Source: Arthrobacter sp. H35-D1 (lineage in GTDB: Bacteria > Actinomycetota > Actinomycetes > Actinomycetales > Micrococcaceae). From it: a stretch of 64,000 nucleotides of DNA. The stretch spans positions 62,001 to 126,000 of the forward strand of contig NZ_JASISP010000002.1 in the NCBI RefSeq assembly GCF_030063185.1. Direction: 5' to 3'. Below, in pieces: positions 39,186 through 44,486 of this stretch (positions are counted from its first letter, which is position 1; each line of letters starts with the position of its first letter). The notes under the pieces are model-generated. The model was given only the letters and a program-made list of their open reading frames with translations, was not told where the DNA came from and did not search any database. The translations under genes were made by a program, and so were the position numbers.

Positions 39186-40036
39186 ACGCACCCCGCGCCC
39201 GAAATGGCCTTCCCAAACCATGGCTCTGGCTTTCCATCTCGGCGGCGTCCCTCGCGGCTGCAGGAAGCATCGTGGGTTCGCTCAATCCTGCGCTGGTGTA
39301 TGGCAAGGAAACGGCCACATTCTTCGATGCAAGCATCGCACAGGACCTTGTCAACCTTTTCTTCGTCGCCCACATGATCGTCGTCCTGGGGATACTGGCC
39401 TTCCATGGATCTTTGAGGTCTTGGCTGTGTCTACTGGGCTTCCTCGCTTTCACCGCTTATAACTACGCGATCTACGCCTTCTCCATCCATTTCGGACCGC
39501 TTTTCCTGGTCTGGGTGGCTGTACTCGGGCTGTCGGCCTACGCGTTCGCCGGCAGTGCGGCAGCGTTGCACCCTTCAGATTTACGTCGGCGTTTGGGCAG
39601 TTTTTCAATACGGCTACCCGGATGGTTCCTCATCGCAGCAGCAACACTGTTCACCTACTTGTGGTTGAGTGAGATCGTTCCAGACCTGCTGGCCAGCCGG
39701 CCATCAACCTCTGCCACCACCTGGAATGTGCCGAGCAACCCTGTTCATGTCCTGGATCTCGCGATCTTCCTACCCGGCGTCTTCGTCGTAGGGCTTCTGC
39801 TTCTGCGCCGCCACCAGCTGGGCTATGCGTTCGCACCAAGCGCATTGATATTCCTCGGACTCACCACCTTGCCGATCATCCTCACACCCTTCGTGGCGCA
39901 GGCCGAAGGTCATGCGCCGTCCTGGTCGGTCTTGGTACCGGTCGGCATCATCGCCCTCGCAACGCTCGCCTTGTTATGGCGGATGCTTCACAATGCCGGG
40001 AATAAATCAGACCTCGGATCGGGAGGCATGTCGTGA
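39182..40036 (+). CDS. Multi-pass membrane protein, unknown function
   Basis: 284 aa with seven to eight hydrophobic segments, among them LWLSISAASLAAAGSIVGSL, LVNLFFVAHMIVVLGILAF, WFLIAAATLFTYLWLSEIV, LDLAIFLPGVFVVGLLLLRR and VPVGIIALATLALLWRML. No catalytic motif is visible. It is translationally coupled (ATGA overlaps at both ends) to the small membrane protein before it and to the interrupted DUF6544-like gene after it, which suggests one membrane-linked function. Confidence 0.75.
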   Translation: MNAPRARNGLPKPWLWLSISAASLAAAGSIVGSLNPALVYGKETATFFDASIAQDLVNLFFVAHMIVVLGILAFHGSLRSWLCLLGFLAFTAYNYAIYAFSIHFGPLFLVWVAVLGLSAYAFAGSAAALHPSDLRRRLGSFSIRLPGWFLIAAATLFTYLWLSEIVPDLLASRPSTSATTWNVPSNPVHVLDLAIFLPGVFVVGLLLLRRHQLGYAFAPSALIFLGLTTLPIILTPFVAQAEGHAPSWSVLVPVGIIALATLALLWRMLHNAGNKSDLGSGGMS

Positions 40037-40198
40037 GTGCTGACACTCGAAGGCCACAGACCCTCGCCGAGTGGGAAGACGAGCTCACCGGCTTCGCCGA
40101 CAATGCTGCCTTTACTGGAGAAGATGTCGCTGAACTACCAGAGCCCGTTCAAAAATACCTCAGGGCGGCAATCCGGACCGGTACCCCACTGGCGCAGG

Positions 40199-41255
40199 TG
40201 TTACCGAGCGCATTGTTTGACGATGGCGGCGTCGCCCTTGTTGGCGATGGGAATGGCGGGTTTGGTCGTCATCGTGACGCGGTGGTTGGCATTGCTGCCG
40301 GGAGGAAGAGCTAGCAATCAGTGTCGTCGTCATGGTGACGACTGTTTCTGGGCATGGCTGGGCACGGTCTCGTCGCTTTTTCAGGTGCGCAGCGGCGGAC
40401 TCAGCAGGTTACCTTGTGTGAAGAGCCCGATCAGGGTCCAGGGCGGCAGATCGACGTCTACGCGGTGCCGGTAGGCCAGTGCGGCACCGGCCAAGATGTT
40501 CAGGCTCCAGCCGAGCAGGCTCGGCCAGGGTTTGGGCCGGGCGAGGGTATCGGGGTTGAGGCGGAATGCGTGCTGGACTGCTTGCTCGTACAGCCAGTGA
40601 GCGTGTGTTTCCGGCACCCGGCGCAGCCAACGGCGCACCGTCGAGAGGGGCCGGCCCATGTGGGCAGCGATCGTGCGGTACCCGCTGCCGGCGGCCTTGG
40701 CCGCCAACGCGGTCCCGATGACCTCCACCGTGTCGGCCCGGCGCACGGACAACGCGGCTGGCAACAGGATCTGGGTGCGGCGGCAGCCGGTGCAGCGGGC
40801 CCGCCGCGGCCGCATTGTAAGCCGCGTATCGCCTGGGCCCCGCACGGTGCGGGTGCGGGCCTGCCCGTGGGGGCGCAACGGCGATGAACAGTCCGGGCAG
40901 AGTATCTCGCCCGCCAGCAAGGCCGTCTCGGTCTGCCCGCGGCCGTCCACGATCATCATCGTGCCCGCTCCTGTTCGCCTGTCCCACACTCATGTCAATG
41001 ACTATTGCCTATCATGCCCGCGGCGGGGAAGGGGCCACTTCGTGTTGAACCAGCACCGTCCCGGGACGAATACGCCACCGGCCACCGGCGGAACCAATGA
41101 AACCAGCATGACCACGGTATTTTCAGGATCGCAGCGCGCCGGTCGGAACGGCGGGTGTCGTCGTCACGATGGCGCCGCCAACGAACCCCGGGACCAGGAC
41201 AGCGCCATCGTCAGGCAACGCAACTACCCGCGGTCATCCACTGCGACGCGTAACA
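40199..41255. mobile_element. 1,057-bp insertion element with one DUF6431-like gene, 5-bp duplication
   Basis: Ends are 17-bp imperfect inverted repeats: TGTTACCGAGCGCATTG at 40199-40215 and, inverted, TGTTACGCGTCGCAGTG at 41255-41239. Directly flanking GCAGG (40194-40198 and 41256-41260) is the target duplication. Just inside lie two pairs of inverted subterminal repeats: TGACGATGGCG (40218-40228 and inverse 41203-41213) and CATCGTGACG (40270-40279 and inverse 41162-41171), as expected for transposase-binding sites. The only credible gene inside is the minus-strand DUF6431-like CDS. No DDE or other catalytic transposase domain was found, so the element is non-autonomous or uses an unrecognised mechanism. 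Confidence 0.88.
40381..40959 (-). CDS. DUF6431-like zinc-finger / HTH protein of the insertion element
   Basis: 192 aa from the ATG at 40959 (MMIVDGRGQ). An N-terminal CPDC...CTGC four-cysteine pair (ILCPDCSSPLRPHG and RARCTGCRRTQILLP) suggests a zinc ribbon. A helix-turn-helix follows (SGYRTIAAHMGRPLSTVRRW) and then an Arg/Trp-rich C-terminal half with a hydrophobic patch (LLGWSLNILAGAALAYRHR). As far as recalled, such proteins are often annotated next to integrase-type transposases, but no partner gene is present here. It probably recognises the element ends. It is the only coding content of the element. Confidence 0.8.
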   Translation of the reverse strand: MMIVDGRGQTETALLAGEILCPDCSSPLRPHGQARTRTVRGPGDTRLTMRPRRARCTGCRRTQILLPAALSVRRADTVEVIGTALAAKAAGSGYRTIAAHMGRPLSTVRRWLRRVPETHAHWLYEQAVQHAFRLNPDTLARPKPWPSLLGWSLNILAGAALAYRHRVDVDLPPWTLIGLFTQGNLLSPPLRT

Positions 41256-41699
41256 GCAGGGCGTGCGGCTGACAATGCGAGGGAGCATTAAGATCGGCAG
41301 GTGGCTGCCATTTAGGGCCACACAATTGATCAACCCGCACAGAGGCTTCATCTGGAAGGCGAGAGTCGCTGGGATCATCGCTGGGTCTGACCATTACCTC
41401 AACGAAGAAGGAGGCATGGACTGGAAATTGGCTGGCCTCTTCACTCTCGCCCACACTGACGGGATGGACGCTTCCACAAGCGCCGCGGGGCGAGGCGGTG
41501 CCGAGGCGGTCTGGGTTCCAACAGCACTACTGCCCAGGTTTGGGGCAACGTGGACTGCAGCTGACGACACTCATATTTCCGTGGTCCATACCATCGGGAA
41601 CACCTCAGTGGAAGTGCATTACACGCTACGCCCAGACGGCCACATCCATTCACTGGTCTTCGACCGATGGGGTGATCCAGTGTTGCGGTAACCGAGGGA

Positions 41700-42082: not shown

Positions 42083-42424
42083 CTATTTGCTGGTTCGACC
42101 GAGCCTTTTGACTGCAGCGACATAGGCGGCTAGGCCCTTACGTTCTCCGACTGATACTGCTTGCACGGCTTTGACTTTGCCGTCCTTGATTCGGTAGACG
42201 AGGCGGAAGCGAGGCTTCTGTTTCGTGTCGGTGTCGAAGTAGAGCTTGAAGCAGTCGCTAAGATCGCCGGTGGAAACCCTGTCATCCAGGCCCTGACCAG
42301 TGAGAGTGCCTTTGGCAACTTCGACCAGCAGGCCTACGGCCATTATTCGGAGCTCTTGGGTGGGGAGTGCTGACATATCGTCCTCAAAGCCGGGTAGGGC
42401 ATCAAGACCAAGCTGAGAACTCAC
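42083..42424 (-). CDS. RelE/ParE-like toxin of a type II toxin-antitoxin pair
   Basis: 113 aa. The second half has the RelE/ParE-type beta sheet: DLSDCFKLYFDTDTKQKPRF, RLVYRIKDGKVKAVQAVSVG and ERKGLAAYVAAVKRLGRTS. The N-terminal 45 residues are helical. Family toxins are ribosome-dependent mRNases or gyrase inhibitors; which applies cannot be read here. The ATG overlaps the antitoxin stop by 4 nt, the usual antitoxin-first arrangement. Confidence 0.75.
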   Translation of the reverse strand: MSSQLGLDALPGFEDDMSALPTQELRIMAVGLLVEVAKGTLTGQGLDDRVSTGDLSDCFKLYFDTDTKQKPRFRLVYRIKDGKVKAVQAVSVGERKGLAAYVAAVKRLGRTSK

Positions 42425-42711
42425 GCTTTCGGTTCATCAATGGTGATGCCGAACTTTGCGGCAACATCAGCAAGCGGTACGGCTGGGCCGGCTTCTTGGC
42501 GTTCACGAACGAGGCGCGCGATTTCCAGGTCCTCCATGATCGGAAGGAGCTCGGAGTACAGCTCGAAGGGGATGACCACAGCTTCGGGGCGGCGGTTGGC
42601 GCCGAATACGACCGGTGTGGCTGCCGCGTGGTCCGTCCGGAACCGACGAAGAATTGCCGGGACGCTGGTGCGGAATTCGGCTGTTGGCTGGACTTCAAGG
42701 AAAGTGCTCAT
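42421..42711 (-). CDS. Phd/YefM-like antitoxin
   Basis: 96 aa. The N-terminus (VQPTAEFRTSVPAILRRFRT) and middle strand-helix (PVVFGANRRPEAVVIPFELY) follow the Phd/YefM DNA-binding dimer fold. The C-terminal third (LVRERQEAGPAVPLADVAAK) is the expected extended toxin-binding tail. It is coupled to the toxin gene by a 4-nt overlap and preceded by a 14-bp palindrome suited to autoregulation. Confidence 0.75.
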   Translation of the reverse strand: MSTFLEVQPTAEFRTSVPAILRRFRTDHAAATPVVFGANRRPEAVVIPFELYSELLPIMEDLEIARLVRERQEAGPAVPLADVAAKFGITIDEPKA

Positions 42712-43364: not shown

Positions 43365-44486
43365 CTGGGCTCTCCACTTAAGCGGATTAAGCGGAGTTGT
43401 GAATCTTTATTCCCTGACGCCAGGGACGTACTGTGCGGCGGCGCTCCGATTTGCCGGGATAACCGGGTGTGATTGGCGGGGTTGGTGGTTCCTTCCGCCG
43501 CTGGTGGCCCACGGCTACTTCCCGATACTCAACGGGACGGTGCCCTACAGTAAGTGTGAGCAGACTGTGGAACAGCAGGCCTTGGTGATGTGAGGTGCGT
43601 CGGTTGAAGCGAAAAACAAATTCGTCCAGGTAGCTGTCCAGATGCTCCGGGCTCACGGCGCCCTGGTGTGTCCCCAGCAGCCAGCGTTTTGTCAGCGCCG
43701 CGACCCGGTGGACACCTGGCAACAAACCGCCAGGATCTTCTCCACGTGAGGCTGCGGCACGCTGGCTGCGAGGTTCGTGGACGTATCCCCATTCCTTGAT
43801 GCCGCGATAGCTTGGCCAACCATCCGTTATGACGGTCGAGCCCGGCGCAACAAACGTTGAGACAAATTGTTGTACGGATGCTGCGGAAGCGTCGTCGAGT
43901 ACGCCCATGCGACACCGGCCGAACCCCCGCGGTTCATTGACCTCGACAGCGATGCCGACCAGCACCTTCTTCCCGCGGGCACGTCCGCCTGCCAGCCCAG
44001 CTTCGTATCCGCCAATGAAAGTCTCATCGACTTCAACCGTGCCAGACAAGGGCCTTCGACCAGGCTGGGACAGCAGGGAACGAAAACGGTGCAATAATAT
44101 CATCCACGCCGTCTGGTAGGACCCAATCTCCATCGTCCGCTGGAGTGCCAGAGCCGACACCCCGTTCTTGGCGGTAGCGAACAGCCAACACGCCCTAAAC
44201 CACACCGTCAGCGGCATGCGCGTCCGGTGAAATATCGTGCCGGCGGTGACCGACGTCCGGTAGGAACACCTCGAACACATCCACCGCCCGTCGCCAAGTC
44301 TCCAGCCGCCACCACCACACTTCCGACAGGTGAAACCTGCTGGCCAACGCAGCCATTCCAGGTAGTCCAGGCAATCCGCGTCCGTGGCAAACCACTCCTC
44401 GAACTCGCCCAACGGGCTAGGATAATCAACACCCACAAGGAGGATTTCCATCCCCCAAATCTACTCCGCTTAAGTGGAGAGCCCAG
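43365..44486. mobile_element. IS1595-family (ISXO2-like) insertion sequence
   Basis: About 1,122 bp. Both ends share the inverted repeat CTGGGCTCTCCACTTAAGCG and two more bases (left end 43365, right end 44486). Flanks are AGCCGGAT (43357-43364) and TGCCGGAT (44487-44494), an 8-bp duplication with one mismatch, or 7 bp exact; IS1595 elements duplicate 8 bp. It carries one intact transposase gene on the minus strand and interrupts the SRPBCC gene. Confidence 0.9.
43387..44451 (-). CDS. IS1595-family transposase
   Basis: 354 aa, apparently intact. The N-terminal zinc ribbon is C-x2-C...C-x2-C (FTCRKCGGGGW and RWMCSRCSYRTSVTAGTIFH). The ISXO2-like DDE/DDN region follows: GTVEVDETFIGGYEAG, VITDGWPSYRGIKEWGYVHE and the C-terminal AVSPEHLDSYLDEFVFRFNR. 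A Lys/Arg-rich tail ends the protein. The gene nearly fills the element, leaving 20-35 bp at each end. Confidence 0.93.
   Translation of the reverse strand: MEILLVGVDYPSPLGEFEEWFATDADCLDYLEWLRWPAGFTCRKCGGGGWRLGDGRWMCSRCSYRTSVTAGTIFHRTRMPLTVWFRACWLFATAKNGVSALALQRTMEIGSYQTAWMILLHRFRSLLSQPGRRPLSGTVEVDETFIGGYEAGLAGGRARGKKVLVGIAVEVNEPRGFGRCRMGVLDDASAASVQQFVSTFVAPGSTVITDGWPSYRGIKEWGYVHEPRSQRAAASRGEDPGGLLPGVHRVAALTKRWLLGTHQGAVSPEHLDSYLDEFVFRFNRRTSHHQGLLFHSLLTLTVGHRPVEYREVAVGHQRRKEPPTPPITPGYPGKSERRRTVRPWRQGIKIHNSA

Follow-up and report, generated by a model that had tools for sequence, protein, structure and literature searches.

Why a mobile element that has no transposase should have retained one gene is the question raised by an insertion in the window, by which we mean the whole stretch of 64,000 nucleotides of Arthrobacter sp. 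H35-D1 DNA that was analysed. Bacterial transposase-less elements are usually viewed as gene-free ends or as recent deletion products; here the transposase-less element belongs to a lineage of its own that extends across several genera, and its sole gene, which encodes a DUF6431 protein, is under purifying selection. The window element is a discrete mobile unit, real and mobile, with one selected gene; it does not stand alone and is not the result of a recent deletion. The solo lineage appears to be old, and the explanation that we consider probable is that of an old transposase-less lineage which resident autonomous relatives mobilise in trans and which retains DUF6431 for the benefit of its own element.

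The insertion in the DUF6544 gene and its single product

In silico excision of the element together with one GCAGG yields an open DUF6544 frame (Table 1). An intact DUF6544 gene is present in G005, a genome of the same genus group, with 88% protein identity to the target over residues 2-195, and a lone ACAGG lies at its junction in place of the window's pair of GCAGG; the single ACAGG in this uninterrupted gene indicates that G005 represents the empty site. The 1,057-bp element, the GCAGG duplication and the restored frame described in the first-pass annotation were thus borne out and agree with the G005 site, while the span of 40194-41260 given there contains the correct element but also includes both duplications, the element itself occupying 40199-41255. 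The imperfect 17-bp terminal inverted repeats were likewise verified, left and right agreeing at 12 of 17 positions. For the proposed subterminal repeats the outcome was divided. The repeat TGACGATGGCG was derived from the element itself, so that the first match of a scan comes free, and at one mismatch or fewer it has 3 matches as compared to a mean of 0.05, and never more than 1, over 200 dinucleotide shuffles; at two mismatches or fewer its 4 matches, set against a shuffle mean of 0.73 and a maximum of 4, are unconvincing alone. By eye, a repeat similar to TGACGATGGCG is seen in the ends of the transposase-encoding elements F_Sp_G004 (TGACGATGGGG) and F_Sp_G011C68.

Table 1. Features of the element and of its insertion site, with positions as numbered in the window
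Feature	Position	Strand	Remark
Interrupted DUF6544 gene (target), 5' part	40033..40198	+	
GCAGG target duplication, left copy, 5 bp	40194..40198		Empty site in G005 holds single ACAGG
Whole solo DUF6431 element, 1057 bp	40199..41255		Delimited by GCAGG pair and frame restoration
Left terminal inverted repeat (gene's 3' side), TGTTACCGAGCGCATTG	40199..40215	+	
Subterminal repeat TGACGATGGCG	40218..40228	+	Candidate part of transposase binding site
Inner motif CGTCATCGTGACG	40267..40279		Found in scan at 2 mismatches
Second inner motif GTCGTCATGGTGACGAC	40326..40342		
DUF6431 gene, 202 aa	40381..40989	-	GTG start (ATG at 40959); PF20020, PF13384
Inner subterminal motif TCACGATGGCG	41164..41174	+	1 mismatch in motif scan
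Subterminal repeat TGACGATGGCG near right end	41203..41213	-	Motif scan
Right terminal inverted repeat (gene's 5' side), TGTTACGCGTCGCAGTG	41239..41255	-	
GCAGG target duplication, right copy	41256..41260		
Interrupted DUF6544 gene (target), 3' part	41261..41691	+	

The assignment of the sole gene to a DUF6431-like zinc-ribbon/HTH protein was confirmed by matches above the curated cut-offs to Pfam DUF6431 (residues 31-121, E 2.7e-7) and to HTH_23 (E 2.2e-6), the zinc ribbon comprising Cys 31, 34, 66 and 69 and being followed by the HTH. Only DUF6431 and HTH models exceed curated cut-offs for the protein and matches within the element are limited to them, in keeping with the first-pass view that it holds no transposase catalytic domain. 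A hidden nuclease, for which that annotation had advised a check, was rejected, as no catalytic set is conserved in alignments of 11 proteins or of 32 rows (9 of 41 rows having been left out as partial). D86 is the sole invariant acidic residue among the 11 proteins and is conserved at <95% in the 32 rows, which include broken copies, and in those 32 rows every acidic, His, Tyr, Ser or Lys column stays below 95%, a count blunted by the broken copies. By sequence no solved structural relative was retrieved (best E 0.32), an AlphaFold2 model from a 5-row alignment was poor (mean pLDDT 48.8) and unfit for fold search, and PADLOC, consulted for an anti-phage role, returned no match for the window protein. 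Judged by these sequence features, DUF6431 looks like a DNA-binding accessory protein.

Solo copies and their transposase-bearing relatives

A search for copies with the same ends, as the first-pass annotation had recommended, found both single-gene solos and transposase-bearing relatives, which supports its proposal of a structured non-autonomous element with a DNA-binding protein of its own and makes the element a member of a wider family. Solo elements with a single gene, about 1.04-1.11 kb long, are present in the Specibacter/Arthrobacter group, near whose two namesake genera the window's group is placed by named relatives, and in Rhodococcus, Mycobacterium and Mycolicibacterium; those with resolved ends measure 1039-1112 bp and were found in G010, G011, G501 and plasmids of Rhodococcus and Mycobacterium. 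The window genome harbours a second solo copy of 1058 bp with the duplication GGTCC. The G010 copy aligns to positions 1-1057 of the window element at 80% and other copies align partially at 75-82%, while the 1064-bp copy in Mycolicibacterium gilvum has both ends and no exact duplication. Several solo copies have broken genes, and many copies of the genus group are decayed. Next to the solo genes examined there was no DDE or AAA match on the same strand.

Among 394 class-level genomes, 9 (the window's own included) gave a DUF6431 match at 1e-15, and no further solo loci were found in the genus and family to which G320 belongs. Of 50,697 phage records none matched the solo protein of M. gilvum, nor was a match obtained in one viral-contig scan, and no gene-free pair of solo ends was seen among the element matches of 197 genomes in a search of other design. 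An empty site for the mycobacterial copy was absent from the 30 matches listed of 52 records, only one of the 52, namely the copy itself, covering at least 80% of the query; two further searches with Rhodococcus copies each gave 7 records, of which 6 and 4, respectively, covered most of the query.

That a solo element has moved recently is shown by a 1045-bp version that occurs, with 99.9-100% identity, at 10 places; these are spread over 6 plasmid records out of 72,556, and the eight distinct sites carry exact duplications of 6, 6, 7, 7, 7, 8, 9 and 9 bp. Exact target duplications of 5-9 bp were recorded for 24 solo insertions overall, a set from which L132 and L133 (flanks from two sites), L140 (the site of L103) and L047, L100 and L142 (without exact duplication) were excluded. 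L132 and L133, both on mycobacterial plasmids, combine the left flank of a first solo site with the right flank of a second, an arrangement that a deletion between direct copies would leave; NZ_CP015270.1 contains the two copies concerned. The Rhodococcus opacus 9 solo copy (L138 1707-2751) lies near genes annotated as a TnsA-like endonuclease subunit and an ATP-binding protein.

The autonomous relatives combine DUF6431 with an rve/Mu_C DDE gene and an AAA_22 ATPase gene, in L032, L034 and L035 in the order DUF6431, DDE gene, then the AAA gene or its start, and are about 3.2-3.7 kb in size unless interrupted. One such element is present end to end as a 3440-bp contig of the window genome, and G320 has three copies of 3393 bp that are 99.97-100% identical. 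Their DDE protein is IS481-like and, by weak matches, distantly similar to TnsB. Nine exact duplications were obtained for autonomous elements, all of 5-6 bp, in G004, G011 (two), G320 (three), M. intracellulare, M. gilvum and R. jostii, that of L146 belonging to a second-ranked end pair chosen for agreement with the other two copies; the USK10 autonomous element has no exact duplication. Two autonomous copies are interrupted, the inserts being named by eye: the 5852-bp element at L035 1173-7024 has its transposase gene split by a group II intron-type reverse-transcriptase ORF, and that of L032 is split by an apparent IS21-type istA/istB pair. At L165 3015-5317 a DDE-AAA pair of M. riyadhense has no recognisable DUF6431 within about 1.5 kb upstream, and a solo copy whose gene is broken lies on the same plasmid.

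The mean duplication length was 6.5 bp for solos (n=24, 8 of them from one version) as compared to 5.4 bp for autonomous elements (n=9; p 0.009), the ranges being 5-9 and 5-6 bp and the window duplication measuring 5 bp; part of the end pairs had been ranked partly by duplication length. The longer solo duplications could reflect different machinery, and a spread of 6-9 bp is unusual for most DDE enzymes. The spread is nevertheless within the range of 2-15 bp, mostly 6, that an extract of PMC10045372 gives for IS481.

Lineage, selection and ends

In a tree of 39 DUF6431 rows, extracted by profile with My_riyad and X_G544 dropped from 41 and with each broken copy represented by its single best open piece, one branch (support 100/98) splits 19 solo from 18 transposase-linked proteins, where four of the solos (L094, L096, L100 and L142) are without a resolved end pair and exact duplication, and where "autonomous" denotes a DDE gene beside DUF6431, part of the 18 having been read end to end. 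By this branch the window protein falls outside the transposase-linked clade; of the rows of uncertain type, G508 groups with the solos and G501-L160 with the transposase-linked proteins. A grouping of solo and autonomous proteins of the same genus was rejected, with p-AU of 7e-5 for the Specibacter group and 9e-71 for Rhodococcus, in a 25-row tree that included three mis-framed proteins (My_riyad, Rh_op9b and f36_G501). The window protein is 33-40% identical to the three autonomous DUF6431 proteins in the alignment, and a C-terminal PPW...G....G.LL.PP is present in the 8 aligned solo proteins and absent from these three. The first-pass annotation had held that a DDE transposase in every related full-length copy would mark the element as an ordinary deletion derivative; relatives with related ends and DDE/AAA genes do exist, but that description is a misfit, because the solo proteins form one cross-genus lineage apart from the transposase-linked proteins of the same genera.

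Estimates of dN/dS were based on 12 of the 16 solos and 7 of the 9 autonomous elements, a motif filter having removed Rh_USK10, F_My_gilvum, F_Rh_USK10 and F_Rh_RHA1. All 17 solo pairs listed within genus groups gave values of 0.12-0.37, namely 0.22-0.37 in the Specibacter group (10 pairs), 0.12-0.37 in Rhodococcus (6) and 0.36 in Mycobacterium (1). Autonomous DUF6431 pairs of the Specibacter group gave 0.26-0.45, and the nearness of the two sets indicates that selection on the solo gene is about equally strict. Such purifying selection implies that the gene pays for itself without an adjoining transposase, although repression or a benefit to the host would also explain it.

The ends track bacterial order rather than the co-resident copy. 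Identity over 40 bp was 67% between solo and autonomous ends within an order as compared to 56% between solo ends across orders, and the true order labels ranked highest of 70 permutations, in a comparison of 9 of the 16 solos with 8 of the 9 autonomous elements from which near-copies and the f36 group were excluded, and in which the Specibacter group is placed in the order to which we take it to belong. With both ends combined, the window element is nearer to the G004 and G011 autonomous elements than to its co-resident one; likewise, the autonomous element nearest to the AH16 and USK10 solo ends belongs in each case to a different strain, and the My_riyad and f36_G501 solo ends are near no autonomous element. 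In NZ_CP012886.2 one autonomous end matches both solo ends over 51 bp (86% and 82%). The right ~50 bp of the window element are 80-94% identical to single-end matches in same-family genomes (L032-L039, L056 and L057), among which L032, L034 and L035 are transposase-encoding elements. Only the window and G010-C120 solos share the right end of the autonomous elements, the other solos of the group differing, which suggests an exchange of ends. The window element has TGTT-type ends with a second inner repeat, as in autonomous elements (the inner repeat judged by eye), and, also by eye, GTGACG-type inner motifs are seen close to the 5' end in solo and autonomous elements alike.

Co-residence of solo copies and DDE genes is suggestive and incomplete. 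Within the 23 genomes of the genus group a DDE gene is present in 3 of the 4 with an open full-length solo frame (G000, G010 and G011, with G005 lacking it) as compared to 2 of the 19 others; the solo copy of G005 has damaged ends. In a search of eight further genomes or plasmids, in which drafts may hide repeats and only the plasmid sequence represents plasmid hosts, a DDE gene was found in three and a match at E <= 1e-30 was missing from five (G005, G501, G508 and plasmids NZ_CP009112.1 and NZ_CP095404.2).

Proposed movement in trans and the alternatives

On the reading that we favour, a lineage of transposons would have given up its own transposase and retained the DUF6431 gene. Most likely, resident relatives would provide a DDE transposase and an AAA ATPase that recognise the TGTT ends and the inner repeat, and the solo element would then be moved in trans by this borrowed pair. 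The solo DUF6431 would act on its own element, likeliest by binding the subterminal repeats, and, once bound, may help, steer or time assembly of the borrowed transposase. The retention of DUF6431 in solo elements suggests an action on the element itself, in assembly, target choice or restraint, of which help in assembly is the role that we prefer. The other proposal of the first-pass annotation, a part for DUF6431 in transposition of an undescribed sort, may also hold: selection in solo elements is purifying, and the autonomous relatives have a DUF6431 gene next to their transposase gene. More tentatively, the solos may constitute a distinct and old DDE-type class in which the transposase was abandoned and DUF6431, selected across Micrococcales and Mycobacteriales, captures a resident TnsB/TnsC-like machine. 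If so, the transposase and an end-specific adaptor would be separate players. Related ends, machine and protein, occurring with and without each other, offer a simple way into the role of DUF6431 in a three-gene TnsB/TnsC-like system.

Restraint is the role that would be central if the solo DUF6431 were a repressor of the autonomous element, its trans-mobilised carriers being favoured for the restraint they impose or in competition between elements. A zinc ribbon and HTH with no catalytic signature would suit such a repressor, and the GTGACG-type motifs are candidate operators; we nevertheless judge this rather unlikely given the spread of one solo version to 10 places and the low identity between the window protein and the three autonomous DUF6431 proteins. 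Target choice would instead be the function if DUF6431 were a selector of sites for the borrowed DDE and AAA proteins. TniQ and TnsD are target selectors, and a TnsB-like DDE protein, an AAA ATPase and a zinc/HTH third protein together recall the Tn7/Tn5053 sets by analogy; with no common target sequence visible by eye in the duplications and no TniQ/TnsD among the family matches listed, we regard this role as unlikely.

The solos could alternatively be repeated internal-deletion derivatives of autonomous DUF6431-DDE-AAA elements in which DUF6431 was kept merely as the neighbour of an end. Autonomous relatives with related ends are known, also in the window genome, the gene order is compatible with loss of DDE and AAA, and copies in the genus group are often decayed; the single cross-genus clade, the dN/dS far below 1, the 1039-1112 bp of resolved solos and the C-terminal motif of the eight aligned solo proteins nevertheless make this origin very unlikely. 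That DUF6431 is itself a recombinase and the solo element autonomous strikes us as most improbable: the gene is the only one of the element, five of eight genomes or plasmids are without a detectable DDE gene and solo duplications are longer on average, but the alignments contain no catalytic residue set, no model other than DUF6431 and HTH passes its curated cut-off, and autonomous relatives with like ends encode a separate DDE enzyme. Trans-mobilisation of an old lineage remains our preferred account; against it count the solo copies for which a DDE match is missing, the ends that follow order instead of the co-resident copy, and the longer solo duplications.

Non-autonomous insertion sequences are a known kind that the element resembles, as are, by analogy, solo-TnpB elements. 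Its relatives share TGT-type ends with IS481, and residues 40-323 of the L104 DDE protein fit the IS481 model of NCBIfam at E 1e-53, short of the curated cut-off; the window element differs in being without a transposase, and the autonomous relatives in having a Mu_C domain and additional genes for AAA and DUF6431 proteins. The latter are similar to Tn7/Tn5053 in their DDE protein with a Mu_C domain and weak TnsB matches, AAA_22 partner and repeated subterminal motifs, and differ in having DUF6431 as third protein and in their size of about 3.2-3.7 kb unless interrupted; neither TniQ (Pfam, NCBIfam, PADLOC), TnsD nor TnsA was listed for the scanned DUF6431, DDE and AAA proteins. The zinc finger and HTH of DUF6431 match the ISL3 model in its N-terminal part only (E 4e-7 to 6e-4, below the curated cut-off), whereas the ISL3 catalytic domain is lacking.

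IS1341-type solo-TnpB elements also keep an accessory gene alone, the transposase being supplied elsewhere, although enzymes and chemistry differ (HUH TnpA and RNA-guided TnpB); no DDE-type counterpart was met in literature searches aimed at other questions. To our knowledge MITEs, TIMEs and similar bacterial elements have no conserved gene of their own, whereas solos, which differ in this from MITEs and from simple deletions, keep one under purifying selection (dN/dS 0.12-0.37) and form a separate clade. MITEs and TIMEs, like the window element, are ends without a transposase and, according to an extract of PMC13367494, are presumably mobilised in trans. Solo DUF6431 elements were not described in the literature searched, most subscription journals and all preprints being outside its scope; the portion seen of one published gene table places DUF6431 beside a DDE gene of Ruminococcus gnavus.

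Two other loci lie close to the element in the window. A small gene pair at 42083-42711 encodes a protein (42421-42711) that weakly matches Phd/YefM and RelB-like antitoxins and a partner (42083-42424) that is RelE-like by eye, and an IS1595-type transposase gene, with a zinc ribbon and an ISXO2-like DDE domain, is found about 2 kb from the element at 43387-44451.
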